The translations under genes were made by a program, and so were the position numbers. A stretch of 64,000 nt of DNA from Liolophura sinensis (Eukaryota > Mollusca > Polyplacophora > Chitonida > Chitonidae): contig NC_088300.1 in assembly GCF_032854445.1 (NCBI RefSeq), forward strand, positions 28,317,608 to 28,381,607, written 5' to 3'. Below, in pieces: positions 14,851-63,461 of this stretch. Position 1 is the first letter of the stretch. Each line of letters opens with the position of its first letter. The notes under the pieces are model-generated. The model saw only the letters and a program-made list of their open reading frames with translations. It did not search any database and had not been told where the DNA came from.

Positions 14851-16345
<1,495 letters not shown>

Positions 16346-17478: not shown

Positions 17479-17935
17479 TTATTTATATAAGTATTTTCTG
17501 AGGGATTTTATTCCATCATATTTTGCCTGTGTCAAACGTGAGAGAATCTGAGAAGCGTCTAAGCAGACATTTGAATACCAGCCGTCAACCAAAATGGACG
17601 TTCCAGGTCAAAAATCGCAAAGCCCAAAACGTTTAGCACAAACCATCATGCTAAGAACCAAGAAAGTATATAATGTACGAAATCTAGACGGAATCGTGTA
17701 AAGAGAATAAGTCAACAGTTTTCAATGACGCTGAAAAGACGCAAGAAATGTTCTAGGCGGATGAATGAAGTCAATATTCAAATCGTGTACCATTCTAATG
17801 TATAGGTTGTCAATAATCAAAATACGTATCTCAGTTGCACTTTGATTGCAACTGTTCATATATCTGACGCGGCGATCTATTTCAATACGATTAAGATACC
17901 GCCCCTAACACCGGGTTAAACGGAAGTTTAGATAA
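17479..17935 (-). pseudogene. Secreted-frame family, copy C (one in-frame stop)
   Basis: On the minus strand the upstream module (17700-17935) contains ATATGAACAGTTGCAATC, CACGATTTGAATATTGAC and GTCATTGAAAACTG. It runs into a 73-codon frame at 17697-17479. The first codon is ACG where copy B has ATG. A hydrophobic stretch (T-L-Y-T-F-L-V-L) follows, then R-F-G-L-C-D-F, one TGA, P-G-T-S, G-W-Y-S-N-V and L-D-A. After the TGA the frame stays open 42 codons to a TAA at 17479. Copy A aligns codon by codon across the core (CDY.LGTPF...WYMNVGHD), with CGA where this copy has TGA. The lost ATG and the stop suggest a pseudogene or an internal exon. I do not recognise the family. Confidence 0.6.
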
Positions 17936-18402
17936 AATTATCAAACAGAGGGTCAGAGGTTATGGACGCCCTGGGTTTCAGCAGCCGAGGAGAAGATCCT
18001 ATCAAACTAGAAAGCGTTATCTTCGTATTATATTTGGCAAGGTTATTTACATTTCACACAGGTATACACATAACAATGACAAAGCAGCAGTTCGCTTATA
18101 TATGCACATATGTTTACTAAAACCAGAACTTATGCCTAACCTTGAATCAAAGTTCAGGAATAAATTTCCATTTCGGATGTGAGTATCCAGATCAAATTGC
18201 ACACCTGCTGTAGCCTGGATGTCTAACAGAAATGAATATAGACCTACCAAGTCCTTTTTTCTATTGAAGCTTATGTATATATGTGGGACATGCATATAAT
18301 CTCCTATTACTTCTATTCCAACTTCCTATATACATATATAGTGGTTATAGCAGGCTAGCTAGCTTAGCAGAATAACCTACGTGTCTCTCACCTATCTATT
18401 TG
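17936..18402. other. Intergenic, nothing recognised
   Basis: Spacer between copy C of the secreted-frame family and a SINE. I saw no gene. Confidence 0.5.
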
Positions 18403-18597
18403 GTGTGAGTCCAGCTGTTGTTGGCTTCCTCTCCAGCCGTACGTGGAAAGGTCTGGCAGAAACATGCGGATGACCGCAGCGGTTTTGTCCGGGCTCTACC
18501 CGGTTCTCTCCAACCACAGTGCTCACGGGCTTGGTATAAGTGAAATATTCTTGAGAACGGCGTATCACTGCAATCAAATAAATACATAAATCCTATA
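18403..18597 (+). mobile_element. tRNA-derived SINE, nearly full body, plus orientation
   Basis: The copy runs from GAGTCCAGCTGTTGTTGGCT through TTCCTCTCCAGCCGTACGTG, GGAAAGGTCTGGCAG and GGGCTCTACCCGGTT to the tail AGTGAAATATTCTTGAGAAC and CAATCAAATAAATA. This is the best-preserved body of the family in the window. The promoter end of the tRNA-like head is missing or diverged. Confidence 0.88.
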
Positions 18598-19304
18598 CAT
18601 ATATGTTAATGAAAACTGACCCATGCATTTAGACGGATGTTGGGGTTTATGTGAAAAAGTCAGCTATAGACACTGAGAGAATTAGCCAACATACTTCATA
18701 CATGCTCAGTTACTTGTCCTTCTGATTCCACCTAAATCAAAAAGTCCAATTACATATGGGTGGCCTCTTTGAAGTCTCTTGCGCTCCACTTCATACTTGT
18801 GTCCATAATTCTTTTAGAGGGTTGCCTATATTCAGCTGTCTGTAGAATCCGTCATACCCGCTACCAAAATTGCCTTTACCCAGTGTCACGTAACAACCCA
18901 GGCTCTACACATTGATATTTTAGACGTCCATGTTATATGTAATAAATTGCAGTTAGAATACTCTTTCTAATTCATAATGTTAAAATCTATAAGCTTAGTT
19001 TCGACACCAAGAACTCATTGCCTCGGGTGACGTCATGATTATCCAAAAACAAGTTGCATGCTGGACATTGGACGTGGAAAGTAATTTGTTTTACAATGGC
19101 TGCATCAACAAGCGGGTAGAACAAACTCCATGCAATAACAAAGCCTAAACTACTGTCTCTGAGAATAACTAGATCGCTTTAATTTCCTAATATCCATCTC
19201 TACAACTGTACTGAGATCATATACCACAAGAGAAAAAGTAAAATTCATTTATTAAGTTTATATTATATTAAAACGTGCGCACGATTTTAAATATGGCGAT
19301 GTCA
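18598..19304. other. Intergenic, nothing recognised
   Basis: AT-rich sequence without a gene or a repeat that I could pair with another copy. Confidence 0.5.
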
Positions 19305-19445
19305 GGAACAGAGTTTCTGGAATGGAGGGGGGTAAATATGCATGGTGTTGAATGTAAAATCGCCACGTTGGATATATGAACAGTAGCAATCAAAGCATAA
19401 CTGAAATACATATTTATGATCAACAACAACTAACATAGTCACGAT
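19305..19445 (+). repeat. Upstream-module fragment of the secreted-frame family (copy H)
   Basis: TGGAGGGGGGTAAATATGCA, AAAATCGCCACGTTGGATAT, ATGAACAGTAGCAATCAAAG and AACTGAAATAC match in order the module at about 63120-63230 and its other copies. No leader or coding part follows, because unrelated sequence and then a MITE begin within 100 bp. Confidence 0.7.
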
Positions 19446-19544
19446 TTAGATAAATTTATGAGCCCAGGACATTTCTTTTTTTTTTTTCGCCGAACGTTCC
19501 ATTTTGGTGGAGGGATTCATAAGACAAATATCTGTTAAGACGTC

Positions 19545-19811
19545 TACACCGAGAAAAAAAGTTTGGGTCAAATGACTTAAAAATTTGAGTTATACAATTG
19601 AGTTAATTCAACTCACAAAACTGGGCCATATGAACAGATCAGCTGAGTTATGAAACTCATCTGGTTATATTATTGACTCATTTCATTAGTCGGAAAACGC
19701 ATAGGAGTCTTTCATGACTCAGTGGATCTGGTCATCAGCCCAATTGTATAACTCTGATTTATAAAACTCTAATTTTTGAGTCAGTTAACCCAAAACTTTT
19801 CTCTCATTGTA
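19545..19811. mobile_element. Foldback MITE with TA target duplication, about 265 bp
   Basis: The left end CACCGAGAAAAAAAGTTTGG (from 19547) continues GTCAAATGACTTAAAAATT then GAGTTATACAATTGAG. The reverse complement of the right end reads CAATGAGAGAAAAGTTTTGG, then GTTAACTGACTCAAAAATTA and GAGTTATACAATTGGG. The repeat continues inward (GATCAGCTGAGT against GATCCACTGAGT), so nearly the whole element can fold back. TA lies directly outside both ends (19545-19546 and 19810-19811), as for Tc1/mariner-type MITEs. There is no transposase frame. Confidence 0.8.
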
Positions 19812-20114
19812 GAGAATGCATCATTATGCAATGCAGGACGTTCCCAAATTACCAGACATATGAGCCTATATAACGTGTAGGGATTTATTCGGAACAGCCA
19901 TTGCATTATCACACATATCTTACAAATCAGTCTGTTCTCTGCGTGTGTAAATGTGTAGGCAACCCGAGGCCGTGATTTACAATTCATTGGTGTAAATGAC
20001 ATGGATATGTTACTGCACGGAATGAAGAACTTATTCACGATTTTCACATATACGTCTATCTTATACAATCTACCACCGCATTTATATTAATGAATGGGTA
20101 CATTATTGCTGTCT

Positions 20115-20464
20115 GTTTTTGAAAGCTTACTTTTATTTAAGGCTCACTTAGAGAACTAAGAAAGAGCATGTATAAGAAGAAATTAGGACGGATTCATGTA
20201 AAGAAAAGTAGTCAGCGGTTTTCAATGATTCATGCTGGAAAGAAGCAAAGAATGTTATAGGCATCTGAATTACGTCAGTAGGCCTATCCAAAGAAGTAAA
20301 AAAAAAATAGAAAAATTGTATCTCAGATGTGCTTTGATTGCAACTTGATCATATAATCAACGCGGTGATTTCATTCATGTGAATGAATATGTGGCCCCCT
20401 ATATCCCCAGGATACCAGGAATTACACACGATTATAAAGCAAGTCATTGTGTCACACATTCTGA
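20115..20464 (-). pseudogene. Secreted-frame family, copy D (truncated by stops)
   Basis: On the minus strand, TTGCTTTATAATCGTGTG, TCCTGGGGATATAGGGGG, CACCGCGTTGATTATATGAT, AAAGCACATCTGAGAT and ATCATTGAAAACCGCTGAC follow the module in order. They lead to a short leader-like frame (F-F-L-Y-M-L-F-L-S-S-L) at about 20183-20151 that soon stops. Copy C has the same order with close wording over about 200 bp. The far upstream part is interrupted by a SINE at 20464. Confidence 0.6.
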
Positions 20465-20570
20465 TTGAATGATTGTTGTTTAATGCCACACTCAAGCATA
20501 TTTGACTTATAATTACGGTGGCCTTATGGGAGACCGGAGTTCCCAGAGGAGACCGGGGATTTGGCAACTT
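20464..20570 (-). mobile_element. Diverged SINE fragment, minus orientation
   Basis: ATTGTTGTTTAATGCCACAC, TCAAGCATATTTGACTTAT and TATGGGAGACCGGAG match the reverse complement of the SINE 3' half with many changes. It lies within the upstream module of the repeat copy at 20.1-20.46 kb, so it inserted after that module was in place. Confidence 0.65.
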
Positions 20571-22340
20571 GTATATGAAATATATAGGCCTACATATATG
20601 AAAGCCCATAACTGTGTATATATACAGATTCACAGTCCATGTTGGTAGAAAAGGGGAGTAAAACTGTGCCTACGACCCAACGGACACTGTTAACTGTTAA
20701 ATATCACCAAGGCCCATAGGAGCAGTAATAGTGTGGATATCTACAAATTCTCTAAGACCGACATTGAACCCGCGCTTCGTGTATCTAGCCGTTGGTTAGG
20801 AATCGGGTACTTTATACTCAGTTTATAGCTTCATCCCACTCCCTTCACATACCGTGTTGTTGTGCTAATCACAAAACTTGGCCGTGAGCTTCACAAAAAC
20901 AGTAAATTATCTCCTGGTGCTTGAGGCATTCTTGTCTATTCTCCTTGATTCCTCCGCCTTGGGCCTTCCTGAATACTCAGTTCCTGCCATCGAGAAGCTC
21001 GAGCCAGGATAGGTACTTGACGGCGGTGTAGAGGAATAAATCCGCCGGCTTCCCAGAAACGCCATGAGCCACGTCTGGAAAATTCTGCTACACACAAACC
21101 ACATGGTGCTGACACGAAATGGCTCAGGGATATTTACTCCTGTCGTTCGGCTTACGTCCTTATGAACCTCTTCAAACAAACAGTTTATATAAAAGAAGCA
21201 GTCACGGCAGTCTGTAGTCGCAATGAGCACGTGTCCATGTGAAAGCTGAAGGAGATTGTGGTTACAGATAATGGCCTGTGTTTTGTACACCCTGACAACA
21301 TGTAGGCAACATGTAGGTTAATAAAACAGCACGACATATAATTCATGTACACGTATTAACATCGTTGTAATTGAGTTAAAAAATATACCAAATAAAATGC
21401 GATGTGTAGCAATGAATTGTCCTGGGCAACAGCTAAAATATGGTCACGAAGGCCCTTGCAGCGGAGTTGTCTTGAAAAAATTATGTATTGACTTGGTCAT
21501 GCTTTTTGCTGTTCAAGACAGACTCTCATGTAACATGTCAAAATGATTTATATCACAATTTTTTATTTTGTATGCAAGATTGTACAATGAAAAGCACATG
21601 TTATATTCAAAGGGCTAATAAAATCCAGATATTCCAGGGACTGATCTCTTCGCTTTTCTTTATACCAAACCACGAATCGGAGGTGGTTCTTTGTAGTCTC
21701 TGACTGTACAGGTGTGATCAATCTTATGATCAATATATATCGGGTAGACTACACAAAGTAGCTTGTCTTTACGTGACCCTCGAATTAATGCTAACCTACA
21801 GTGCCCGAGCGCTACCATAATGAGCTCCCGTGCCGTGAGGCCAATGGCCATACCACCCAGTCCACTCATGTAATATTCATGTACACCTGTCACCTATGAT
21901 TCATTTACCACATCAAAGACTCTGATTGTAGGCCGCCAAAACGTATGCTTTATATCACCGTGTTTTTGTGCACTCATGAAGCTTACTTCATGAGTGCGTT
22001 AATTATATTCCGTTACACACTCGACTTTGTTAATTTCAATTAGCATACATATTTCTCAAACGATTGAGTTAACAGGTGAATTAAGTGATCCGTTAACCTG
22101 TTGTATACGTGTACGTTGTGGCTTCTTCACTTGGATGCCTGCGAATCGCTTTCACAAAGCACGCTTTTGTTTCGGTCTCTATTCTTTACGCATCTGCAGA
22201 TTCAGTCATGCGCTTATAATCCAGGCTGACATGCAGGCTGCTGTCAATCAGTTAATGATCATCGGCTCCTCACTTCCGGAACTTGTTAAACATATTCAAA
22301 ACATGATTTTAAGACGACCCTTACAAGTTGATTATTCCTG
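20571..22340. other. Intergenic; one short perfect hairpin
   Basis: There is no convincing gene. A minus-strand frame at 20907-21290 is open for 127 codons but has no recognisable domain. The only structured signal is the hairpin at 21970-21997. Confidence 0.5.
21970..21997. repeat. Perfect 12-bp hairpin, 4-nt loop
   Basis: GCACTCATGAAG (21970-21981) and its exact reverse complement CTTCATGAGTGC (21986-21997) are separated by CTTA. Two G-T pairs could extend the stem. It is too short to be a microRNA precursor. Confidence 0.9.
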
Positions 22341-22472
22341 ACCTGGGGGAAAACAAGCTGTCCTTGACTTAAACCAGACTTAGTTGAATATCTTACATTG
22401 CTCTAAAATTAGGAAACCACAGGTTAAAACTAAGTCTGAATTAAGTCTGGATTTGCTTGATCCTCGGGCCTG
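22341..22472. mobile_element. Palindromic MITE, about 130 bp, related to 12907-13155
   Basis: The left end reads ACCTGGGGGAAAACAAGC, then CCTTGACTTAAACCAGACTT and AGTT. The reverse complement of the right end reads CAGGCCCGAGGATCAAGC, then AGACTTAATTCAGACTTAGT. The words GGATCAAGC and AGACTTAA are shared with the element at 12907-13155, which suggests one family in a long and a short form. Exact ends and target duplications were not determined. Confidence 0.65.
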
Positions 22473-22523
22473 TTATAAAGCTGTTCATAGCTTTCTGTAT
22501 GTGTGCGCTACATTGACACGTCG

Positions 22524-22810
22524 TTAACCATGATCGGTGCTGCCCGTCGTTGTTGTTTCCATTATAACAGCTTTAGTATCAGCACTGTCGCAATTGCAAT
22601 ATATATAAGCGTCATGTCCGACATTCATATACCATTCGTAGTCCGTAAAGGGCGTTCCAAGTCGATAATCGCAAGATCCATTTCCAAAACAATGTTTAAC
22701 ACTAGCTCCCAAAGACAAAGGTATGTAAGAAATTATACAAATAAGAAATAAAGCCGGTAACACACCCGAGAGAAGCGGCCATCAGTTTTCAATGATGCCG
22801 GGCAGACAGT
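22524..22810 (-). CDS. Secreted-frame family, copy A (best open frame)
   Basis: The frame runs 79 codons from 22763 to a stop at 22524 and is the longest uninterrupted copy. It opens with GTG at the position where copy B has ATG, so this copy has lost its start or is part of a spliced gene. Residues 1-19 (MLPALFLICIISYIPLSLG if initiated) look like a secretion signal with a cut before A-S. Then come K-H-C-F-G-N-G-S-C-D-Y, G-T-P-F, Y-E-W-Y-M-N-V-G-H-D-A and Y-C-N-C, that is four cysteines, then a Thr-rich end. The upstream CATCATTGAAAACTGATG is shared with the other copies. A MITE ends about 50 bp past the stop. The family and function are unknown to me; expression is unproven. Confidence 0.4.
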
Positions 22811-25411
22811 GGATATATACCATGCCTCGGATTCAGTACGGAGATGAGTCATACGTCAGTTTTAAATCACCGTAGCAATGGCCTCATCATAATGATTCAC
22901 ACTACCAACAGCTATATACTGACCTTCGCGTAGGCCACACTTCTTTATTAAAACCATGTAAAGATAGGCCGTGGCATCGTATGCATGGCGATGTGAGAGA
23001 CTTTAACCTGTAAGCCACTTCCCAGATGGTTTCCCAATCTGCTTACCTAAACCCTTGTGTCGCGAAAGCATCGCTGTTTATTGTAGTTTTTGTCTGTTGA
23101 TGGGAAATTCTGTAAAAAGCTTCATTAAAAATTTACCACTTTCCTAAGCTCTCCAGAATATCGGAGTTTTATGGTATCGAATTGTAAGACGAACGCCACA
23201 TTACCTGTTCCGTTATGGTACCATGTTAAGAGTATATAATCCAATTTAAAACCGGTCCTCTTCCATTTTCCCGTCCACAGAATGAATTTATGGCGCAAAT
23301 GAAAATTTGTGCTCAGTGTAATAGCAGATAAAAGGTTTGTTCCTTGTCATGTTGTCATTCCCATGCAAAATATGTCTGAAATACCTCCGATGCGATGCTA
23401 ATACGCCCCTACCGTCCTTCCATTATGATATTGTCCCTTTCTGCAAGATATTCAAGCAGTCTGTCAGCAAGCAGATACGATGCAGCATTGTTACATCTGA
23501 ATAAGATCATGATCTACAGAAACCGTCAATCTTTGATTTTAAAGAGGCTCTATACCGGAGAAAATCCATATTTGCTAAGGAAATCAAATTTTCCCTATTT
23601 ACCGAGAATAGCTTAAATTATTGCCTTTCAGAAAATATCAGACTCATAAATGGGGACCCGAATTATAGATCTACGAACCTAATTACCGATTTTAAATAGA
23701 CGGAAATTTTGTGAAAGGTAATTATTTGACCTATTCTAAAATCACAGCAAAAAAATTCGATTAGATATGCCCTCATCGATTTTTTGCCAAAATACTCCAG
23801 CATAGTCCCATTTAACCGTTATAAATTATTATAGCGGAGTAATTTCCATTGTCACAGCGCATTATTTATAACTCCTGGAATTTGGTTTTGTTTTTGCTGA
23901 CGACCCAATATGAATAATTTTGATTATTTCTGGTTTGGTTATTAAATTAACACTTGTTGCTTTACGGTGAAGGTAATATAGCGAAGTTTTCTCATTGTAG
24001 AGTTGCCATACTACTACAACCCTACCGTTATGACTGTATATTATCGACTTAACCATTTAGAGTTAACAATAAAAGCGCAAAATAAATAGTCAGACAGCAC
24101 GACAGAGCCCACCTCATGGAAAAAGATCCATCTAATTCTGTTCCTTGATTTTGCTCATTTTTTTACACGTTCTCTTGAATCAGTCTGTTATAAAAATGCC
24201 ACAGTTGTCTCTGGAATAGGAATTTTCTTCAGTGGGGAAGTGTTTATTTTGAAAAGAAGATGACCCACAATAGAACAACGTGAGGAGAGACATCACTGAA
24301 TTCACCAGCGGAATTCCGATAACAAAAATAAACGATCGTGAGGACGAGAGACGGGATGAAAAGGAACCGAACTCCGCCTCGAGGATAACAATGTGGACAT
24401 GATACCTCTGATTACGGCCTGGCTTTGCGTCACCATAAAGACACACTTACTTGCAACGGCGAAAACAAATAAACTTATGCCAGCACCTAACCATGCTAGT
24501 CTTTGACAGAAACATGCATTTTAGGTACCAGTAAATCTGCATATGTTACTTTTGCCTTCGCACTCAATGTTTCTGCTCACCCTCACTATCATTCTGTCAC
24601 ATGTACATATACCTCGGTAGTTTCACCTGATATGCGAGGATACAATGCACCTTTTCTCGTAGAATCTCGCATGTCTCATGTTACATAGCGTCCTAAAATA
24701 GGATTGACTCTATCGCTAACGCCGAGATGGCTGCCCTGGCATTCTACATGAACATCTTGTTTTTACCGTCATATGCTGAATAACCTCAAATTTGAACCCT
24801 GCTTTTGATTTGTCAGATGGAAAGGCGGATATGGACGTTTTTGTTTGAAATTGTGATCTACAAATGAAAAAACATCTACTTGTTTGAGTTTGTGGGCTTA
24901 CGACCAACAACGTGAGGACCATTTTGTCATCAGGTCATCTGTAGCCTTTAGCGATCTCTTCACCTGACTCGGATTCCAGGCACAGAGCATTGTCACAGAT
25001 GTCCAGTAGTGGATAGTTGAAAAGATTGACAAATTACAACTGTTAAAACTTCAGAACTCTATTGGAGACGATTTGATTACTAGTTTACGTACGTGAGCCC
25101 TTTTACATTGTAGGGCGGGAAATCGATTGGACACGATTTGAACCTTACTGCGGATAACCAATCAGAGTATACCAACGTCATGTATTGCTGTATTGTAACG
25201 TTGTGGATGCTCCTCTACACGACTAAGCACTCGACAGTAACACAGGAGACAGCCTGAGGTTTTGTTAGGCTAAATGGACAGAGAACATTTATAAACAACA
25301 TACACTTAACTTAAAAGTGGCAGATGGGGATATCGGTAGAGCTGCACTGTGTTGCTTGTCATCTTTGTGAGATTTTCCACAAAGTTGAGGTACGAGTGAC
25401 ACGATATCATG
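22811..25411. other. Intergenic, nothing recognised
   Basis: The frames here are short and unconvincing, and I found no RNA gene or paired repeat. The far upstream module seen with other copies of the secreted-frame family was not clearly recognisable next to copy A. Confidence 0.5.
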
Positions 25412-25492
25412 TTTCCGCCCGCCGCCGTATAAGTGAGATATTCTTGAGTACCACGAAAAAGGCTAATCAAGTAAAAAATAAATAAATCATGT
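25412..25492 (+). mobile_element. SINE 3' end, plus orientation
   Basis: CCGCCGCCGTATAAGTGAGA, TATTCTTGAGTACCACG, GGCTAATCAAG and AATAAATAAATC form the conserved tail of the SINE family. Body and head are absent (5' truncated). Confidence 0.82.
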
Positions 25493-27494: not shown

Positions 27495-27560
27495 GTGTTT
27501 GTTATTGATTTTTTTATTGATTGATTGGATTAATGTTCCACAACATATACTCTAGAATTT
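27495..27560 (-). mobile_element. Possible SINE tail remnant
   Basis: TTTATTGATTGATTGGATTA, ATGTTCCACA and ACTCTAGAATTTTTAG follow the order of the reverse-complemented SINE tail with many differences. It could be a chance match in AT-rich DNA. Confidence 0.3.
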
Positions 27561-27590
27561 TTAGAATGACACGTACGTCTTCGGTCAGGT

Positions 27591-27895
27591 TTATTGGTGG
27601 TGGAAACCGAAGTTTAGGGTAAATCCCTGTTCTTCCTGACCTAAAGCCACGACCAAACCAAAAAGAGCCGAATTCGATTCCGTGACCATATAGGGGAAAA
27701 TAAATATATTAGCGTCAAATCCGACAATCGTGTACCAGTGGTAAACAATGAAGGGAAGGCCCCCCTTCCAAAAGCAACCCAAAGACGCGCCAGTTTCCAA
27801 AGGAATGTGTAAGAAATGTCATCTAAATGTTCTTTTAGAGTAAATAAAGCTGGTAACATGTAAGTCATCAGTATTCAATGAGTGGTCGGTCTGCT
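27591..27895 (-). pseudogene. Secreted-frame family, copy B (frameshifted)
   Basis: A true ATG at 27859-27857 opens M-L-P-A-L-F, the same start as copy A. The continuation of the family is in another frame: I-P-L-E-T-G-A-S-L-G-C-F, G-L-P-F-I-V-Y-H-W-Y, I-V-G-F-D-A-N-I-F, then 40 more codons to the stop at 27591. An indel between the leader and the core therefore breaks the frame. The upstream ATCAGTATTCAATGAG (plus-strand wording) matches the start-proximal motif of the other copies. The cysteines C-D-Y and C-N-C of copy A are not kept. It is most likely a pseudogene, unless an intron removes the frame difference. Confidence 0.5.
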
Positions 27896-28309: not shown

Positions 28310-28525
28310 AATACCTGGGCCCTTACTGGCCGAGTAGTCTAGACTATCAAGAGTAGATTCACGCCAAGACTGCGCGTTCGAATCCAGCCTGCACATAGAT
28401 TGACCTGGCGATTCCTCCATGATCTGCACCGTTTCCTGCAGGCATAAACCTAACTGTGGACATGTAAGTGAAATATTCTTGAATATATAGTGCGAAATCC
28501 CAATCAAATAAATATTTATAAACCC
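28310..28525 (+). mobile_element. SINE with tRNA-like head, plus orientation
   Basis: TGGCCGAGTAGTCTAGACTA (about 28327) resembles an internal A box, and GCGTTCGAATCC (about 28373) a B box, with spacing close to that of a tRNA gene with a long variable arm. A shortened body follows, then AAGTGAAATATTCTTGAATA and CAATCAAATAAATA. This copy keeps both the pol III promoter-like head and the tail. The head is part of the element, not a tRNA gene. Confidence 0.75.
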
Positions 28526-38489: not shown

Positions 38490-38509
38490 GGGGGGGTGGG
38501 GGTGGGGGG
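38490..38509 (+). repeat. G-rich tract, possible quadruplex
   Basis: Three G runs of about 7, 5 and 6 bases are separated by single T residues. Four-stranded folding is possible because the long runs can be split. Confidence 0.6.
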
Positions 38510-39309: not shown

Positions 39310-39437
39310 TGTACCGTCTAGCTCAGCTTCCGCAGTGGTAAGGTCAAGCACATCTATGCTGCATACCCACATATAGTTATTGGTTTGGAATATTCCTGAG
39401 TATGGCGTAAAACACCAATCAAATAAATAAATAAGTA
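39310..39437 (+). mobile_element. SINE, short body, plus orientation
   Basis: GTCTAGCTCAGCTTCCGCAG at the left may be the rest of a tRNA-like head. The tail GAATATTCCTGAGTATGGCG then AAAACACCAATCAAATAAAT is very close to the family consensus. The central body is largely missing. Confidence 0.78.
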
Positions 39438-40267
39438 TCTGCTTCGAATACACCCAAGGCTGAAAATGTAAATCACAGGATCAAGGATAGGTCACTAATG
39501 AAAGGAAAAATGAAACAATTATATCATTAATCAAGTTTCGGTTAAAGTGGAAAGGATGTACAAGCCACTACTACTTACAGATATGTATGAACAGCTTCAA
39601 TGAAACCATAACGGAAGCAAATTGCCAAGAAGTTGGATTTCACCAGTAAGACGTACGTTTGTCAACTATCACGCTGTGTTCGCTGCTCTGACTTTCCTCT
39701 ATCGTGTAGTCTTATATTATTATACCATAGTTTCACCAACCACTTTATGTATGTTTTCCCCTGTCCCAAGCCGTTTTCGACTTCCCACGGCCACGGCCTT
39801 TTCCTTTCTGTGTTCGTGCAAAGCGCTATCTTGATACAATGACCTATATCTGTATACAACGTTATAGTTTTTATACTGGTCGGATTCACCAGCTGTGACT
39901 ATGTGTCAAACCACTGACGGACCATATGTGTAAATTTATGTACATATACTTTCTGAGTTAGCTGATACAGTTATCTCTGCGGATAATAAGCCAATTGGCC
40001 AGTCGTGACTGTTAGTATCCTTGTTCACATATAATGCGCTTCATTACAATATTGCCAAACCCCAGGGCTGTGGGTTTCTCAGCTCATAACGTATTCTGCT
40101 CTCCTGTGAATAGCTTCAGATATTACGTAACCAGCGAGAGGGGATTGACGAGTTTCAAATGTAGGTCAAGGTCACGGTTCTGGCCCTCAATTAAGAGCAC
40201 ATGATGTAATACACATACATGACATTAACTATATAAGACTTCTCATATTAGTGAAAAATTGATTAGT
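39438..40267. other. Spacer between two SINEs, nothing recognised
   Basis: The two facing SINE copies at 39.3 and 40.3 kb are in opposite orientation about 830 bp apart. I saw no gene between them. Confidence 0.5.
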
Positions 40268-40382
40268 ACAATTTATTTGTTTATTTATTTGATTGGTGTT
40301 TTACGCCGTACTCAGTAATATTTCACTTATACGGTGACGGCCAGAATTATGGCGGGACGAAACCGGGCAGAGCCTGGGGGAA
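40268..40382 (-). mobile_element. SINE 3' half, minus orientation, well preserved
   Basis: TTATTTGATTGGTGTTTTAC, GCCGTACTCAGTAATATTTC, ACTTATACGGTGACGGCCAG and GGCGGGACGAAACCGGGCAG closely match the reverse complement of the family. The low divergence suggests a fairly recent insertion. A (GTAT)n array begins 25 bp downstream. Confidence 0.88.
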
Positions 40383-40407
40383 TTTAAGTAACTTAAAACC
40401 CAAGAAT

Positions 40408-41500: not shown

Positions 41501-41610
<110 letters not shown>

Positions 41611-53600: not shown

Positions 53601-54314
53601 CAATATCTGGGATCTAGTCAACACATGTCACTAATTCTATACCAAATTATAATACAACAGATGTTTTTTTCCTTTCAATATAAACATAAATGTTAACTTT
53701 AATAAATATGCAGATTTCAGCAACTTTCGTCATCTTAGAGAATCATAATGTATACGTGTTAGTCAGTGCATGTAGCACATAAAACATAGGTAGGAATGGC
53801 CAAGTCAGCCGTGCAGGCCATAGCATGTGAAGTGGCTCTGCTATACAGTTGTAAAAGGTCACAGTTATGACTTTTAATATGCTATTGGTCACGTTCCCAT
53901 AATCCATACAGCGTCGAGTTTCCTGGCATAAACTGATGGGTGCAGGGAACAAGTAGGCATATACCGCCGGCGTATAAGTACGGTCACCATTAAATCCGCT
54001 CTTCTGAGGGATCTGATCCGTAACAACAGCCTGGACGTTGGTATGACACACAATGGCCGTGCATATACCGGGCGCAGGGATACATGACCGACAGACAGGC
54101 AGAGTGACTGGTAAATCCATGAAGGCGTGCTGTGTACCACAACCACCGCGCGGCTTGCCGATCGATTCTACAGCTGCCTATTGTGTGCTAGGGGAAAGGC
54201 GGGTTGACGGCAGCGGTTGAGACTCGCGCTTTTAAGTGACTAAACGAGAAAACATGAACCACCTTCAAAACGCATCACACAGTACTTATACGAAAACCAT
54301 GGCGAATGTTGGAT
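41611..54314. other. Gene-free 12.7 kb, nothing firmly recognised
   Basis: I found no known protein family, SINE, MITE or RNA gene. All frames are under about 126 codons and several read open on both strands. The only structured item noted is the pair of overlapping hairpins at 42121-42162. Distal regulatory DNA, introns, or sequence beyond the 3' end of the LRR-Ig gene are all possible. Confidence 0.45.
42121..42162. repeat. Two overlapping, mutually exclusive hairpins
   Basis: GCCTGAAGTAAA (42134-42145) pairs with TTTGCTTCAGGC (42151-42162) across a 5-nt loop, with one G-T pair. CAGGCA (42121-42126) can instead pair with TGCCTG (42133-42138). The second stem uses bases of the first. No transcript is known here. 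Confidence 0.7.
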
Positions 54315-55981
54315 TTTATTTTTCTCTGGGTTGGTTATCCCCAATGAGGACAATTAGTATATTCAATTAAAATGTTTCCTATAGCGAAAACAATTAATGT
54401 TACCATCAAACTCAGAAAATAAAGTGAATACTTGGTCATCAGATCTGGACAATAGGTTCTTCTATCAATAAAGCGTAGTTTAAACTCTGCAACATAAAAT
54501 GTAGCACAAACTGTTATACCAATCTTAAGTTTTGATTTGAGGACCGCTTCTCTCTTGTCTTTGCACTGACTTCCTTTGTGAAGTGGCTCACTGTCAGAAG
54601 TCGACAGTATGTCTGGTCAAATCTTTACGCCTTTCGCTTTTACAGTTCGTCCGACAGTGAACTTCAAGGCAAGGCCGCCCTAAATTATTACGGTCTGTGA
54701 ACAGATAAAATTTTACACTCACACACAGATCGACACGAAAAAATGCCCCACGGCTAGCACAGTACATTAGCTCCAATTTGATTTGTAACGGTCCAAATGA
54801 CGAATAGCCTGTCTGGCCGGCATGAAGACCTCCCAACACTGAGAAATTTGACATGAGGGTGTGTGTGTAACAAGAGAGAAGCCAGTCCACTGCTGTGAAA
54901 AGACTGAATGAGTAAGCAAAATACGTCACACCTGTAATCAATGGCGACAGGTAAAATATTACGAGCATATGTCCAGTTCCTCCAGTTAACAATGTGTGTC
55001 TTTCACGAGTACTTATAAATTGATTTCTGTTAACACTAAACTGTCTCACATTTACACAAGGCCGAGCAGGAATGACGAGTGTATAGAGCACACCGCCAAC
55101 TGGTGTAATGTATACCCAGATACACAGCGGTATTTGTACAAGGTATAATAATGCCACGTCGGTATATTACATAGCCGTGACAGAACCTTTCTCGTTGACG
55201 TCGTCTAGGTAACAAGCAGTGCAGGCCGGAGCATCGCGAGATCTCCGACAAAAGGGTTACACATTACATATAGAACTCCGATCATAATCTCTAATAAATA
55301 TATCCATAATTTACATAATTACACATTATTTTAGTCGCTGTATATAAAGTCTCTTAGAGAACATATTTTGACATTAAACGTCTACAGCATATGTACACCT
55401 CCTTCAAGTATGTCGTCCTCCACATTCGTCAATGAAAAAAAAAGAACTCCAACACTCCACCGGTGATGAAGGACGAACTACTCCTGATCTGACACGTTAC
55501 CTAGTCACCGTTATAAACATTGCACATCAAAACACACACGCAATTAGCACATCAATGACGTTAGTACAGAAAAAATCTCCATACGGTATATGAAAGTTGG
55601 GGTGGATGGGAGTGAGGGGTATATCACCACCCCTTCCCGTCCCACGTGTTTACATCAGGACGACCCCCCCCCCCCCCCCCACACACACACACGATGGGCT
55701 GTGAAGTTGGGCGGGGATTGAGTATTTTAATATGACAATATTTTTCACGACAGCCGGGAGGTGAGAGGACAACAGAAATGAAAATGATGTCATGGAAATG
55801 TCTGTTTGTATCGAATACTGAGCTCTTTTTGGGATATATATATACTTCCAACGGCCCTACTATCTCAATGGTGAGGGGTCAGGCGGTATACCGCCCTGGG
55901 TATATCGGCACATCCCCACAGCTTGTCAGCTGTGTCGCCCATCGGGGTGAAGGGCGTGTAGGGTGGTAGGGGAGGTGGTGT
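54315..55981 (-). other. Probable 3' UTR of the LRR-Ig gene
   Basis: Downstream of the LRR-Ig stop on the minus strand there is no further conserved coding. An ATTAAA-type poly(A) signal is present (55726-55731 on the plus strand as TTTAAT), and an AATAAA signal lies further away (TTTATT at 54315-54320). Either could end the transcript. A GTG-started 187-codon frame at 54594-55157 has no domain and is treated as chance. Confidence 0.35.
55664..55692. repeat. C17 tract followed by (AC)6
   Basis: Seventeen C residues (55664-55680) run directly into six AC dinucleotides. It falls in the presumed 3' UTR of the LRR-Ig gene, where the transcript would read (GT)n then poly-G. The homopolymer length may be uncertain in the assembly. 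Confidence 0.95.
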
Positions 55982-57466
55982 TCAGCTCGGGGTTTCCTGA
56001 GGTTCGTAGGTTTCACCCGGTGTGGCGTAGTGATGGTGATGATGATGGTTGATCATCTTTATAGCCTGTTCACCGTCCAAATCGGACGTAATATACACAT
56101 TGTCCGGGGTCTTTTCTCTCTCTTTACTCTCGCGGAATATGACATCGGCCTGATGTTTGTAATACAGATGAAACAGAATGATGCACAAAAGTAGACTTAA
56201 CAGGAATGTGCCGACGATAGCACAGACAAGCTGCACCACGGTAAAACTTTTCTCTTCCTCTTCCTTGGCTGGGGTGGCGTTGATGGCGGACGTGTCCCCC
56301 ATTTGGCTCGGCTCGTACCCCTCCCATTTTTCGTACGGAGGTTTGCCTCCTCCTTCCTCTTGCTTATCAACGCTGATCACTTCGGGTTGGGGGATCAAGG
56401 GCCAGCTGACCAGCACGTTTACCCTGACATCTCCTGCAGGGTTCTCAGCAATGCAGGTGTACTTCTCCTTGTCTGTCCCCTCTCCTCGGGTAATCCCCAA
56501 CACAGCTGTGGTCACATGAATACTCTCATTTTGTGATGGTCCATAAGTTACTTTCTTCCCCGAGGGTTTGATCCACACGAGGGTGGGGGTGGGATCTCCG
56601 TTGGCCTCACACAGCAACTCTCCATCGTCTAATTCCAGCGTTATGTCTACCTCGCTGAACACAGGAAGCTGGCAACTGAATTCATCTCTGCTCATCTCAT
56701 TAAAAAATTTTCCTTTGAGTCTAGGCGGTGTTTCGCATGACGGGGGAATGGCGTTTGAAAACACTGAACTATTGGTTAGGTAAAAATCCCTCAGCCAGGT
56801 AATTTCACAGTTACAATGAAAAGGATTATGTCCGAGTCGTAAATGACTCAATGTGCGAAACACGTACAACCATTCTATACTAAATTTCTCAAAGTTGTTT
56901 TCGTCCAGCCATAATGCCCGAACAGTTCCATTGAGAGGTTTAAATATGTCCAGGGTAAAGTTACTTATTCTTGAGCTGTGAAGATACAGACCTGTCGTCC
57001 GCAGACCCTGGAAGGCATTAGGAGAGAAACTCAGCCCGTCATTGTCACTCAAAAACAAATTGTCCAGATTTAAGCCACGAAATGTGAAATCCTGTATTCG
57101 GACAAGCTTGTTGTTCGTGAGGTCCAGCCATTTCAGATTCCGTAAATCCGCAAAGGTGTCCGCTTCAATTTCCTGTATGCCACAATCACTTAGATACAAA
57201 TGTACCAGGAATTTAAACGCAGTAAAATTGGCTCTTTCGAGCTTTGGATTTTCAAAGTTGTTGTTGTTCAAATTGATCTGGCTCGTTGAAGCGGGTATTC
57301 CTTCGGGGATGAAAGGTAGGTTTTTCCTAGAGCAGTAGGCGATGCTTGTTACGGGATTACAGAAGCAGACGGAGGGGCAGGCGAGCGTACGACCCAGGCA
57401 GAAGACCAGGGCTAGCACGGCGTGCAGCACCACAACACTGGCCCTCACTCCGCCTAAGTAACACAT
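55982..57466 (-). CDS. LRR-Ig single-pass membrane receptor, single exon
   Basis: A complete 494-residue type I membrane protein. Residues 1-29 are a signal peptide. An LRR N-cap follows (C30, C34, C36, C45), then about six leucine-rich repeats (63-215; L-x-L-x-x-N-x-L/F pattern such as L-D-L-T-N-N-K-L) and an LRR C-cap (N-P-F-H-C218-N-C220, C244, C265). An I-set Ig domain spans about 270-355 (C286, W298, Y-T-C338). A Glu/Lys-rich stalk leads to a membrane helix at about 408-433 and a 60-residue tail with six histidines (474-479) and tyrosines 458, 480 and 487. N-glycosylation sites are N80, N169, N179, N232, N313 and N396. This is the kekkon/AMIGO/LRRC4-like design, known for cell adhesion and neuronal or growth-factor signalling; which subfamily, and its ligand, cannot be told. 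The ATG has G at -3. No intron interrupts the frame. Confidence 0.95.
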   Translation of the reverse strand: MCYLGGVRASVVVLHAVLALVFCLGRTLACPSVCFCNPVTSIAYCSRKNLPFIPEGIPASTSQINLNNNNFENPKLERANFTAFKFLVHLYLSDCGIQEIEADTFADLRNLKWLDLTNNKLVRIQDFTFRGLNLDNLFLSDNDGLSFSPNAFQGLRTTGLYLHSSRISNFTLDIFKPLNGTVRALWLDENNFEKFSIEWLYVFRTLSHLRLGHNPFHCNCEITWLRDFYLTNSSVFSNAIPPSCETPPRLKGKFFNEMSRDEFSCQLPVFSEVDITLELDDGELLCEANGDPTPTLVWIKPSGKKVTYGPSQNESIHVTTAVLGITRGEGTDKEKYTCIAENPAGDVRVNVLVSWPLIPQPEVISVDKQEEGGGKPPYEKWEGYEPSQMGDTSAINATPAKEEEEKSFTVVQLVCAIVGTFLLSLLLCIILFHLYYKHQADVIFRESKEREKTPDNVYITSDLDGEQAIKMINHHHHHHYATPGETYEPQETPS

Positions 57467-57502
57467 GGCTGAGCCGTACCCCGACAGTCATAACTTCCCT
57501 GC

Positions 57503-57545
57503 TCTGCCTTACGCACAGAGCAGACAGAAAAACACAACTTCCCAG
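57503..57545 (-). promoter_or_regulatory. Candidate 3' splice site in the LRR-Ig 5' UTR
   Basis: On the minus strand a pyrimidine-rich run (GTTGTGTTTTTCTGTCTGCT) is followed by TGCGTAAGGCAG. The AG at 57505-57504 would leave 37 bases of 5' UTR before the ATG at 57466. Intronless LRR receptor frames often have separate 5' UTR exons. The site is inferred only from its sequence. Confidence 0.3.
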
Positions 57546-57644
57546 TCAGATTCATCGTGAAAATTACCCAACACAAGCATTACATCTCCATGTTTATCTA
57601 CTGGCCCTGTGCCTTCCGCAGTGAGCAGGCTGGCTAGTGACGGT

Positions 57645-57661
57645 ACCTCCCTCTAGTGGCG
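57645..57661 (-). promoter_or_regulatory. CTCF-like site upstream of the LRR-Ig gene
   Basis: The minus strand reads CGCCACTAGAGGGAGGT, close to the bilaterian CTCF core CCA-C/G-T/C-AG-A/G-G/T-GGC but with A where the core ends in C. It lies about 180 bp upstream of the start codon. Chance occurrence is possible. Confidence 0.3.
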
Positions 57662-57890
57662 GGCAGCTGGTCATACATAATAACTCCATGCTGGCAAAGC
57701 TTGGCGCTGGTTGGCTGACGACGCCAGCCGATTGCTGAACCGTTGTCGTGAATGACCTCACGCGTAAATGCGATTCAGTCTGACCTAGTTCATGCACAAA
57801 GCCGGTCACATTCATATTTTATACAGAACTCAGTTAAAATCGAAGGACTTGCCATTTGAGAAATATTATTTGGTTAATGAGTTAAATTTC

Positions 57891-57917
57891 TTTATTTTCT
57901 TCAGTAAAGAAAATAAA
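57891..57917. repeat. A/T-rich 11-bp hairpin
   Basis: TTTATTTTCTT (57891-57901) and its exact reverse complement AAGAAAATAAA (57907-57917) flank a 5-nt loop. Low-complexity A/T sequence makes this only mildly notable. Confidence 0.75.
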
Positions 57918-58360
57918 AACAAATAAAAAGTATAAATTAACGAAAATATATATATAATGAAACACGAAAAAAGAAAATATAACCACGTATCATAAATGTG
58001 TTGACTTGACTTAAATTTAAGACCGATATAAACATGAATGTCATTTATTTCACGTAATATTACATCAATAAATTATGTACGAGCCCTTTTTCAGAAGACC
58101 CTACATACCTCCGAGAGTCCGTAGTAGTCTTTGATCCAGATTCTTTGTGTGTATCCATGATGGAATGTTAAAATATTGATTACATTGCGGACAAGTCTAT
58201 TGTATGCCTACAAGCTACGTGTGAGTATTTTGCGATTTGCATCAACGGCAAACCAGAAAAAGCAGCGAGTCAATTAACACTGTCCTATGTTAGACCTAGA
58301 GTGTAAGGGTATACCGTGTAAACAGTGGTCGGTTTGTATCCTGGGCTACAGGTTGTGAAT
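57918..58360. other. Intergenic, nothing recognised
   Basis: AT-rich spacer upstream of the LRR-Ig gene. No gene or repeat was identified. Confidence 0.5.
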
Positions 58361-59040
58361 GATCCATGTTTATTACATTAACATGCTTCTTTTATGAACA
58401 GTTGAAATCTAAGCCCGACTGAGATACCTACATTTGATTTCGATCTGGAAATTATCTACGGACTACGAGTTCTGTGATCCTCTGATCACAGATCACGATC
58501 CTGTGTCAAATGTTGTGATTCAGTCTAGTTCATTAGTCTTCAATTAAAACACTAGTGTGTCAAGGATACCCCCATCTAACGCCTTCACTCAAAGTAGCCG
58601 TCACATATAGTTAGGCACATACACGTATTTAAACCCGATTATCCCAGCAATATGGTGGGTGTATAAGCATTTATGTTTGTTACAGTGTTTCTTTGTGATA
58701 ATTCCACTTTACGCCACAAGTTGTTCATTAAAAAACTATTCTGTCAAGGATAAGCCATCAAACATCTTCACTCTGAGTTTGTAAAATTTTGCAAGCAGAG
58801 TAAAACTCTTTTTGGCAAATATGTACACAGCGTTCAAAATGTCTGACCACCTCTGTCATAATTGTATCTAATTTCGCTTAAATCAGGGCAATTATATTAG
58901 GGATGTATACGTAGTCATGTTTGTTACATTGACATTATGCTTTGTGAACAATTGAAGGACGACTAAAAAACCTAAGATCGTATTAGACTAAGAAATTATT
59001 TTGGGATTACGAGATTGACTTTTGAATTGAATTTCATGCC
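58361..59040 (+). repeat. Nested copies of the upstream module (copy G)
   Basis: At least two broken copies lie end to end. GAACAGTTGAAATCTAAG and GACTGAGATACCTACATTTG (58380-58430) match the middle of the module. GTGTCAAGGATACCCCCATC and CGCCTTCACTC (58557) match its start, as do CTGTCAAGGATAAGCCATCA and CATCTTCACTCTGAG (58741). GTGAACAATTGAAGGACGAC (58937) is the middle again. CATGTTTATTACATTAACAT and CATGTTTGTTACATTGACAT recur before the middle part. No leader frame was found. A 9-bp perfect hairpin (TCTGTGATC/GATCACAGA) sits at 58471-58492. Confidence 0.6.
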
Positions 59041-59161
59041 TAGAAAATCGAAAAATCTTCTTTCCATTTAGTTGAAAACTGAAATTTACTTGTTTACTTG
59101 CAATTCTTATATTATTTCTTATATGTTCCTTTGTGTCTCGTTTTATGTTCACACATTTATG

Positions 59162-59345
59162 TTACTCCGGCAAATTCTTCATCACAAGTTACACATTAAG
59201 TCGTTTACTCTGGTCTTTACTTCGTCTCCACGCACTGTCTGTTCGTCGGTTAAAAATTACTCTGGCAAATGCTTCATCACACGTTCACATTAAGTCGTTT
59301 ACTCTGGTCTTTACTTCTTCTCCACGCACTCTCTGCACGTCGGTT
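59162..59345. repeat. 95-bp tandem duplication
   Basis: A unit of about 95 bp starting TTACTCCGGCAAATTCTTCA (59162) is repeated from 59257 with roughly 90 percent identity. Weaker echoes (CGGTTAC, GGTCTTTAC) continue to about 59465, suggesting an older array. Overlapping frames with K-S-F-T-L-V-F-T repeats are products of the duplication. Confidence 0.85.
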
Positions 59346-59499
59346 ACCCCAGCCTATAGATACCTTCCTTTTCACATATTTATTACGTCCGCTATACCCC
59401 AGCTTGTATAGCCCTTCCCAACACTCTCATTATGCCGGTTACCAAGGTCTTTACCTCTTTGTTCTAACTCTACTCCAGAATAAAGACGGAACGTCGAAC

Positions 59500-59636
59500 T
59501 ATCCTGATGGTTAGCGCGTCCTCCTTGGTGTCGGGAGACTCCACAATCAAACCCTGGTCACCTAATGACGCGTCGTCGTCACGTGACTTCCAAGCATTCA
59601 TTCATTTATTCATTCATTCATTCATTCATTCGAATC
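59500..59636 (+). mobile_element. tRNA-like SINE with (ATTC)n tail
   Basis: CTGATGGTTAGCGCGTCCTC resembles an A-box region and CACAATCAAACCCTGGTC a B-box region, spaced about as in a tRNA. After about 40 bp the sequence ends in (CATT)n at 59598-59630. The tail differs from the CAATCAAATAAAT family, so this is another SINE type or a head-only copy. It is not a functional tRNA, because no cloverleaf with matched acceptor ends is visible. Confidence 0.6.
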
Positions 59637-61924
59637 ATCTACCTTATATATACTTTCACGTTAGGTATACCACCTTCACTTTGTAGGTTTTATAAGTATC
59701 CATATTCATTATATCAGCACTGTGCTCACAAGCACTGGTAAGTAAATCGACACTTAAACGCATTGATTCTGTTCCTTTTTATAACTCTTAATTATTAAGC
59801 CTTTATGTCTAGATTATTGAATGTCTTCACGACAGAACTGAAAAATACAACACCTGTTTCCATCTTTAACATGACAGCAGTCTTTTCCATTCATTAGTTG
59901 ATTTTACATTTCCTTTGGGAGTTGCTCTTAGCGTTGCCGTGTGGAAGAGGCTATCCATAGGATTGTCAACTTGAGACGGCCTCTTATTGTTAGTCAGCGG
60001 TCTATAAATTTTTGCCAAAGGCGCTACGATTTACGGCATCAAAGTCTCTAGACACCGTATGGCGACGCCAGGAGCAGGACCAAACTGACACTGTGTTTAC
60101 AGATTCTTCTCATTATTTTCGTAAATAAACACTTGAGAAGTACAAGCCCCTGACAACTCCACGTGTCACTGTGGGTACGGGACTCTAATTGGCAAGGCAG
60201 GCAGGGAGGATTTCAGTTGTCAGGCTTAAGTTCCGAAATGTGTTCAACATAAAATCGCACGTGTTGTACTCCACAACGCATTGCTATGCAAAGAACTGAT
60301 CACAATAGCAAACGTGAGAACAACACAGGTAGTTTTGATCGTTTCCTCACAAATACAGGGTACACAATGGGAAGCTCACGAAAAAAGTTTAAAATTCATT
60401 AATTTATTCCTCTTGAGAAGTTTACTCAAGCCGTACCCGCGGGCAGATCAAAGTCAGAGCAACTTTCTTTAATGAACGGTCTCGGTAGTTTTAGTGATTT
60501 TTGGCACGGTCATTACAAGTTTGAAAAACGGAAAATTTACAGAGAAACATACAATTGCATATGACGTGTTTGTTATCTTCTCATTTTTTTTTAATTTCAA
60601 TTTTAATTAACACGTGTCACCATTAATTAAGCTGCGGATAAGACAGTTTCCCTTTATATTTGGGCAGGTTAATTAACAAGACAAAAAGTAGACAATTTGT
60701 TTATTCCCGAAAACTCTTTTAAAAGTACAAAAGAACAATTTGTCAACGTGTAAAAGTCGTTTTGTAAAGGTATGAATGGGTAATAAAATGCAAGCTTTTA
60801 TGGTGCGATCCAAATTTTTTTTAGAACCCCATCCACCTAAATTAAAAAAACTATTTTGATTGACACTACCATCATATTTCTGATCAACTCAGGAACAGAG
60901 TAATACCATCAAAAGTATACATGTACCTAAAATAAACATAACCAAATCTCAGCCTGAGACCGGATCATGTTTTTATAGAACAGCTTAAAACAATAACCAT
61001 ATCTACAAGGGCAGTAACCAGTTCCAGCAACAAGCTCAGCAGAGTTGTCCCCCTGGAAACTATTTTCAGATAACTGCCTTGAGACACATATACACAAAAT
61101 TGGCATTTCTTTAGCTGCGGAATGAATACTTCACGAAATAGTGGTTCAGCCATTGACCACTTGTTGCAAATATGAATCATTTACAACGGGCATTGAACTA
61201 GCTGTTAGACTGAACTGAGTATTGGGATGAAGCTCCATTACACAAACAGAACAACTAAAGCCTTGCGTGTTTCCCATTGTAAATGGTTGGTGGGGATATT
61301 TTTACTTAGAAAATAAGTTAGGTTTTGCAACTTTGAAAACTGTCATATTCGAGGAAAATCCTCTATTTTACTGAACGGTAAAAATAAACCACTAAAAAAG
61401 CAACCTGTTCTTGTGACGTAGGCATATTATTGGGCGAAACAATATAATACTACTTGGATTTAAGCAGAACGCAAAGCGACAACAAGTTGCCATGTACGTG
61501 GCAAAAGTACTGACAGAGCATGCCGCCTCTTGTATGATATGTCTTTGTCTGATTCGTTACGTTGAAATTGTCTGCAATTTGGGTTTGGTTGATAGACCTG
61601 TGCGTTTCCTTTCGATCACTTTTCACCTGTTCGGCGATAGTATCATTTACAACATCGGGACGGGATGTACACTTATGTACATCAGTTAGTTTTCATTTGC
61701 TTACACGTTGGTAAACCCATATTCCAGTTCCCAATATAATTAAAAACAAACAACATGAAAAGTAAGACCAGAGCAGCGACGGCGGTGAGATAGCTGGTAA
61801 ATGGTCACACGTAACTGGTGAAACACGGCCTCTTGTCAGTTTACCTCGGTCAGGGTAAATAGGCTGTCGGAGGGAAATATACCCACCTTCACTGTCTTTC
61901 TGTCCCTTCACAAGTACAATATTA
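59637..61924. other. Intergenic, nothing recognised
   Basis: No convincing coding, RNA or repeat signal was found in this stretch. Confidence 0.5.
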
Positions 61925-62420
61925 TTGGGATAATTTCATTTTCGACGTTGTTAATTATCCTTTGTTATATGCATTTCTCGCCTTATATATTTCAATATGT
62001 CATTAAATTTTTACTACAAAAGCCAATGTGTCAAGGATATTCCATCATACGTCTTAACTCTAAGATTCTTATATTTTGCAGTGACTAAAATTTCCCCGTG
62101 ACCAAATTTGGACGTATTGTCCAGAATCTGTGGTGATCTGCTTTATCATTGCGTATTATTCAGCATAACCCAGGAGTAGAGGGCAGATTAGGCATCGTGT
62201 TTAATAAAGTCGTCATGCTGGATATATTGCCATGATTTTTGACATGAAAGCAGAACTGAAAGCGCAACTGAGATACAGATATATCTATGATTAAGGCCAA
62301 GATGTTAACTGGCATTGCACACGATTTGGATACTGATTCACGTTTTGGGGCCTATTGTCTATCCGGTGACACTGAAAACTGCTTCTCTTTATTTAACCGA
62401 TCGACCCTGGAGAGTTAACC
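61925..62420 (+). repeat. Near-complete upstream module (copy F), coding part decayed
   Basis: In order this copy has TTAATTATCCTTTGTTATAT (61950), GTGTCAAGGATATTCCATCA (62030), CTGCTTTATCATTGCGTATT (62139), AACTGAGATACAGATATATC (62266), CACGATTTGGATACTGATTC (62320), and CACTGAAAACTGCTTCTCTT near 62370, where the start-proximal motif belongs. No recognisable leader or core frame follows. It is the most complete module and shows that all landmarks belong to one unit of about 450 bp. Confidence 0.65.
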
Positions 62421-62599
62421 TCACCCACTGGCTAGTTAGCCAAGCACACATGCTAAAATTCATGGGAGATTCGAAACCAAATGTACCTCTGTAGCTGATA
62501 CGGTTAGGTTGAAAGAACTACCAGATAACATTTTTCCCTAATTTCGCCTACATTCCAACACTGCGATAAAACACAGAGCGTGAAGGTGTGCCAGGAACC

Positions 62600-62705
62600 T
62601 TCGGATTGTCGTGGGTTTCCCCTAGGCTTTGCCCGGTTTCATCCCACCATAATGTTGGCCGCCGTTGTGAAATATTCTAGGAACAGATGTAATAATTATA
62701 AAGAC
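62600..62705 (+). mobile_element. SINE fragment, plus orientation
   Basis: GATTGTCGTGGGTTTCCCCT, AGGCTTTGCCCGGTTTCATC, CCACCATAATGTTGGCCGCC and GTTGTGAAATATTCTAG are the centre and start of the tail of the SINE family. The copy lacks the head and the last part of the tail. It lies between the repeat modules at 62.0 and 62.8 kb. Confidence 0.82.
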
Positions 62706-62810
62706 GACCTTGGCTGGATTTAATGTAAACCACAGACTCTCCAGCCTGTACTAAGATGTACCAAGACCAAGACGGTAACCTCTCTCGCTGACTGTAAGAC
62801 AAGGGAGACA

Positions 62811-63455
62811 GTTTCAATTTTGACATTGTAAATTATCCTTACTTGGACAGTATTATACCGAAGGCTCCATGCAGCACATGGCGTGTACATAACTCGCTTT
62901 GCAGCATTTGTTAGATTCTGTGTGTTACGTGACGATTTCAATCAACGTCACAAGCTATTACTGCAAAAAGTAGTGTATCAAGGTTACTCCATCAAAAACC
63001 TTCACTAAAGTATCTTAAAATTTTACGATGAGTATAATTCTTTTGTAATTAAATATGGATAGAGCCTCCAGAATCTCCAGCACACTGCTTAATGATTGTC
63101 CCTAACTGTTTAGCCCGGGTCTGGGGGGGTGGGGTGGGGGCTGTATATTCACCGTCTCGATTTAGATCACCACGTCGGATATATGAACAGATGAAATCAA
63201 AGCTCAACTGAGATGATATTTTATTATCGGCAACTTATATATTAGTATGGTACATGATTTGGATACTGATTTCATTCATTCGTCTAGATCAACCCATGTG
63301 CCCTTCCAACATCATTGGAATGTGTTGACTTCTTTTTTCTGCACGATTCCGTCTTAATTTTGTAATTCATATAATTTCTTAGTTCTCTGAAGATTTGTAT
63401 TGAAAGTCGATTTGGGAATTGGCCTTGCGATTATTGACCTTATAGTCCAGCATAG
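62811..63455 (+). pseudogene. Secreted-frame family, copy E (module plus broken frame)
   Basis: The module landmarks occur in order: TTGACATTGTAAATTATCCT (62820), TGTATCAAGGTTACTCCATC (62974), a G-rich spot, CACCACGTCGGATATATGAA, AACTGAGATGATATTTTATT, CATGATTTGGATACTGATTT and CATCATTGGAATGTGTTGAC (63311). The coding part follows, with ACG at 63343 where copy B has ATG. Stops and a frameshift separate a leader-like piece (F-L-S-S-L) from C-I-E-S-R-F-G-N-W-P-C-D-Y, which is then cut by TGA at 63435, the same site as the TGA in copy C. This is the copy that links the upstream module to the coding part on one strand. Confidence 0.6.
63123..63140 (+). repeat. G-rich tract inside the repeat module
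   Basis: G runs of about 7, 4 and 5 are separated by single T residues. Copy H has GGAGGGGGG and copy D GGGGATATAGGGGGCC at the same place, so a G-rich spot is a shared feature of the module. Confidence 0.6.
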
Positions 63456-63461
63456 AAGTAC

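Follow-up and report, generated by a model that had tools for sequence, protein, structure and literature searches.

Does a 64,000-nucleotide stretch of the genome of the chiton Liolophura sinensis (contig NC_088300.1, positions 28,317,608–28,381,607; hereafter the window, in whose coordinates positions are given) carry a family of small secreted proteins, or the remains of a mobile element? A preliminary description made from the sequence listed seven or eight related copies in the window, designated by letters, that share a non-coding module of ~450 bp, and read behind it a short frame combining a hydrophobic leader with a core of the form FGN..CDY..GTPF..WY..VGxDA. Both answers were considered there. 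The analysis reported here indicates that the family is very probably the 3′ portion of a dispersed retroelement encoding a reverse transcriptase (RT), and that the supposed secreted protein arises by chance when its 3′ untranslated region (UTR) is read as a coding frame.

The repeat family in the window is genuine and dispersed, and lies far beyond chance level. It was revealed by self-comparison of the window, and the reported resemblance between copies A and C was visible on alignment. In a first nhmmer pass, seeded with the 17.5- and 63.1-kb copies, six further window stretches were found with E-values from 1.9e-25 to 5.5e-6; copy F (27.8 kb) had an E-value of 0.27 in that pass and joined after iteration. 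A one-copy seed, extended leftwards and iterated, gave a 586-position model that matched 11 window stretches at E <= 1.2e-13, values inflated by the use of these very copies in training the profile. An independent model was built from seven RT loci of the genome (described below), none from the window; L026 and L027 were omitted for their large UTR inserts, L027 also lacking its 3′ end. It matched 14 window stretches at E <= 1e-3, and the 63.7-kb piece (63729..63875) was not among them. In a single control, a first-order Markov version of 200 kb of sequence from elsewhere in the genome, neither of two profiles of the family had any match, versus 10 and 13 in the real sequence. The shared non-coding module was thus borne out by nhmmer, by the independent model and by the Markov control.

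Of 20 further 10-kb stretches of the genome, 5 and 6 held these 10 and 13 matches, three of the ten distant from the window among them. When copy C served as a DNA query, 41 matches were listed, with 40 of 4,941 candidates scored; they lie across many large contigs and, copy C itself apart, at 72–79% identity. Genome-wide the element probably amounts to thousands of pieces, most of them old and truncated, a number that is extrapolated and not counted. The window copies do concentrate at 17–28 and 58–64 kb, with one iterated-profile match (E 0.62) between, as might be expected of a local tandem array of duplicated pseudogenes restricted to this region; however, the matches elsewhere in the genome refute such an array, to which we give almost no credence.

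The module runs ~290 nt further left than the first profile model, into protein-coding DNA. The left extensions of the 62.9-, 62.0- and 58.7-kb copies can be read in a common frame, in which the residues ...QK...QG..I..LHS...KF... are conserved. Over 42 aligned codons, differences at the three codon positions, summed over the three window pairs, were 44/35/57, and in a column shuffle only the sense frame was distinct (reached by 1.7% of 1,000 shuffles). As a lead for testing, we took this extension to resemble the C-terminus of an animal-retroelement RT frame. A degenerate pattern of the motif had one match among prokaryote genomes, in the 4.4-kb contig NZ_JAQRMS010000102.1 from a Candidatus Thioglobus bin. 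Its 199-residue frame, itself a fragment, is collinear with the two RT pieces of copy H (18/35, E 5e-10; 20/67, E 1e-4). When this protein was compared with the window and 200 kb of the same genome, two matches fell below E 1 (62765–62869 and L008:61–195), each where a copy of the module has its left end. Against the source genome (609,464,459 bases, 632 contigs) it had 150 matches, these being the 150 scored among 2,199 candidates. It is 40–42% identical to the RT frames of that genome. The contig (L001), from a metagenome-assembled genome of Candidatus Thioglobus, holds animal-type RT remnants and simple repeats, a eukaryotic-looking content, and is probably host (animal) contamination.

Nine RT loci of the genome were examined, L023–L028 as returned by the RT protein search alone and L029–L031 added for their long frames. 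Open frames of 441–740 residues were found at L027, L028, L029, L030, and L031; RT motifs were visible by eye in all five, with YIDD in three (L028, L030, and L031). Pfam RVT_1 matched three of the five frames (E 2e-4, 1.9e-3, and 0.026), each under the curated cut-off, and a PADLOC RT model matched all three frames tried (8.4e-07, 8.7e-07, and 4.9e-04). The two RT pieces of copy H share 46/69 and 27/38 identical residues with the L028 frame, and its DNA at 62757–63077 is 72.8–76.2% identical to RT coding DNA of all nine loci. Across the final 130 codons of the RT frame in six copies (L023–L028), pairwise differences by codon position were 63/38/112. Together with the position of the module (below), these results show that the repeat includes its own RT frame, as expected of an RT-encoding retroelement. 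Other searches were negative: the short RT C-terminal pieces had only chance matches in Pfam and PDB; P0001, the L029 frame and the alignment gave nothing in PDB past one chance match; NCBIfam gave no match; RT relatives were absent from the viral contigs and plasmids searched, and none were found when the RT alignment was run against prokaryote genomes; and literature text searches on the RT motifs found no papers.

In all nine loci the module lies 3′ of the RT stop, on the same strand and in the same order. The distance from stop to module is ~200–240 nt in seven loci and ~1 kb in L026 and L027, which carry inserts, and the UTR is 619–650 nt long in the seven genome copies without large inserts. 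The end of the module model (346 positions) was reached by all loci except L025, which extends to position 344, and L027, which has lost its 3′ end. At the DNA level, matches between the window stretches and the nine loci extend over both the RT and the UTR. For copy A, 22600–22816 is 88.9–94.9% identical to the nine loci, the match to L027 being confined to 22646–22816 because of its lost 3′ end; for copy C, 17553–17860 is 66–67% identical to four of them, with shorter matches to four more. The independent model found RT and then UTR, in this order, at 58.7, 61.9, and 62.7 kb. A common 3′ end with 5′ truncation is present in the copies compared, and a recent 5′-truncated copy of 1.3 kb in L032 keeps the common 3′ end. 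We therefore read the module as the 3′ terminal part of a dispersed and degenerate retroelement, made up of the RT C-terminus, the stop codon and the 3′ UTR. The mobile element named as an alternative in the preliminary description was the right choice, and the four RT remnants to the left of its module (Table 1) had been overlooked there. In L026 the terminal ~40 nt of the element seem tandemly doubled; of the tandem or partial-tandem arrangement looked for as a trait of Penelope-like elements, this 3′-end repeat was all that was seen.

The core of the small frame is the translation of the last ~90 nt of this UTR, and the whole frame that of its last ~200 nt. Under the other reading, the copies would be decayed members of a dispersed family of small secreted proteins that contain cysteine and share a promoter. 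It draws on copy A, in which a stretch of 85 codons is open and includes a hydrophobic leader, and on similar open readings in L023, L024, and L025. Leader and core had been described for five window copies. Among the five reaching that far, they are open in a single frame only in copy A; copies C, H and the 63.7-kb piece have stops within the frame, and in copy F leader and core lie in different frames. Similarity among differently located copies stops right after GACGCTTATA. Copy A closely resembles a copy on another contig (L017a) as far as GACGCTTAT, past which the two are unrelated, and L023, L024, L025, and L028 likewise diverge just past that point. Because similarity between copies ends there, the open frame of copy A past VGxDAYI is unrelated flank. 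In seven copies compared (six genome copies and copy A), no stop within the element was common to all, and no in-frame ATG preceded the core in five.

Over 62 codons of the small frame in L023, L024, L026, and copy A, the pairwise and mutually non-independent differences were 15/37/22 (L025, L027, and L028 were excluded for insertions or deletions, and L029–L031 were not included). The direction is opposite to that in the RT frame and contrary to the pattern of purifying selection, of which these four copies gave no sign; the small frame thus lies in a repeat without coding selection. The copy-A frame had no Pfam match and only a chance match in PDB (E 1.4). Moreover, the supposed promoter upstream consists of 3′ UTR and RT coding sequence, and the core ends at the 3′ end of the element. 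A secreted-protein family, as first described, is thus wrong in our view, and we consider its probability very small. The “secreted protein” appears instead to be a chance open reading of the UTR end, running past the 3′ end of the element into the flank.

Reverse transcription that begins at the 3′ end and halts early is an established route of LINE-like (long interspersed nuclear element-like) elements. In the retroelement proposed here, the same process would give common 3′ ends and truncated 5′ ends, as in L032. Most copies are short 3′-end pieces with some of the RT C-terminus, the stop codon and part or all of the 3′ UTR, so that the part they share is 3′ UTR sequence and not a promoter plus gene. 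The 61.9–62.4-kb copy, which seems to be interrupted by the stretch with copy H and to resume at 63.7 kb, may represent one copy inserted into another. Families of SINEs (short interspersed nuclear elements) with a tail shared with a LINE are well known, and most window stretches are UTR only, so many window copies might alternatively belong to a non-autonomous element with a 3′ end borrowed from the RT element. However, four window stretches are RT coding DNA, three of them followed by UTR in the correct order, and the left match ends are variable (a common 5′ start and terminal inverted repeats not having been formally tested for). We hold this alternative to be highly improbable and prefer truncated copies of the RT-encoding retroelement.

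Several observations weigh against the retroelement interpretation. An APE- or RLE-type endonuclease domain was not recognised in the five long frames, whose 5′ ends are not fully delimited, and two copies inspected for target-site duplications had no clear one. Pfam RVT_1 had no match in two of the five long frames (L028 and L029) and stayed below the gathering cut-off in the other three. The three two-part window copies miss ~235–250 model positions after the RT stop that are present in the genome copies; they therefore fall into related, older subfamilies. On the side of the small frame, an in-frame ATG does precede the core in two of the seven copies (L027 and L028), because an insertion or deletion shifts the frame in each. 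A column shuffle of copies A, F, and C gave 0.0455 for the frame first described, with 0.0335 and 0.0505 for two other frames, and the non-independence of the pairwise codon-position counts also belongs here.

As to the class of the element, the evidence fits neither a LINE-like nor a Penelope-like assignment of the RT decisively, and is compatible with a LINE. Its RT frame, common 3′ end, 5′-truncated copies and dispersal resemble those of LINEs, that is, of elements without long terminal repeats; unlike LINEs, it has no recognised endonuclease in the frames read and no poly-A tail at the aligned 3′ ends. Bivalve genomes carry numerous and diverse LINEs (PMC10294476). With Penelope-like elements (PLEs) it shares an RT in one long frame, of which some motifs, we presume, resemble PLE RTs. 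Canonical PLEs encode a GIY-YIG endonuclease, which in the Penelope/Poseidon clade is C-terminal, and also have a hammerhead ribozyme (PMC11167929). No Pfam match to GIY-YIG was found in the L027–L031 frames, of which the N-terminal ends were only partly read, and a C-terminal one is absent because the frames end in a stop shortly after the RT. Rfam gave no hammerhead ribozyme at the gathering score in the window and L023–L031, full 5′ regions not being included. A canonical PLE is therefore unsupported, as neither feature occurs in the sequence read. It seems unlikely that the RT represents an animal retroelement lineage barely seen by standard domain libraries, a poorly described class whose insertion would either need no endonuclease or rely on one that escaped recognition. 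A literature search on endonuclease-lacking clades found no papers.

Table 1. Parts of the putative retroelement in the window, with the evidence for each.
Feature	Position	Strand	Description	Evidence
Copy C	17553..17973	-	3′ UTR part of element, up to 3′ end	Iterated and independent models
Copy E	19316..19492	+	Internal 3′ UTR fragment	Iterated and independent models
Copy D	20138..20464	-	3′ UTR fragment without 3′ end	First-pass nhmmer, iterated and independent models
Copy A	22600..22845	-	Last part of 3′ UTR; contains the FGN..CDY..GTPF..WY..VGxDA reading	Both models and DNA match to genome RT loci
Copy F	27707..27889	-	Decayed end of 3′ UTR	Iterated and independent models
3′ UTR fragment	58340..58471	+		Both models and DNA match to genome RT loci
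RT C-terminal coding fragment	58497..58596	+		Both models and DNA match to genome RT loci
RT C-terminal coding fragment	58693..58851	+		74.5–77.7% DNA identity to 9/9 genome RT loci; independent model
3′ UTR after RT fragment at 58693	58860..59145	+		Iterated and independent models
Additional weak 3′ UTR fragment	59694..59983	+		Independent model only, E 7.9e-05
RT C-terminal coding fragment	61927..62144	+		Independent model and DNA match to genome RT loci
3′ UTR after RT fragment at 61927	62157..62391	+	Stops where inserted stretch seems to start	Iterated and independent models
Copy H, RT C-terminal coding part	62709..63099	+		DNA and protein match to genome RT loci; independent model
Copy H, 3′ UTR part	63105..63469	+	Within interruption of 61.9–62.4-kb copy	First-pass nhmmer, iterated and independent models
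Probable continuation of 62157–62391 copy past interruption	63729..63875	+	Model positions 460 then 466	Two-copy nhmmer and iterated profile, not independent model at E <= 1e-3

Other features were observed in the window. A SINE-like repeat, which we take to be a mollusc-type SINE, occurs at 11393–11510, 18358–18591, 25413–25487, 28411–28514, 39386–39445, 40273–40382, and 62592–62678. Its tail resembles ..CACCAATCAAATAAATAAATAA (39386–39434), and six of the seven have matching sequence in L023 or L028 as well. Two long imperfect palindromes, at 4663–5254 and 19543–19813, are 70 and 67% identical to their own reverse complements and are perhaps fold-back elements. Short tandem arrays are found at 7102–7484 (~43-bp units) and 14609–14873 (~24-bp units). 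On the minus strand, 55982–57487 is a single-exon gene-like frame of 501 residues with leucine-rich repeats and an immunoglobulin domain (Pfam LRR_8, 2.5e-22; I-set, 3.1e-09) and a transmembrane segment recognised by eye.

A gene finder or a secretome screen could pick many frames of this kind in the genome, and the present result guards against retroelement tails entering the annotation as a spurious “novel secreted protein family”. The lesson is that the coding potential of a repeated module is best assessed once the module has been followed to its ends. As a repeat-library entry for the source genome, the element is useful in its own right.

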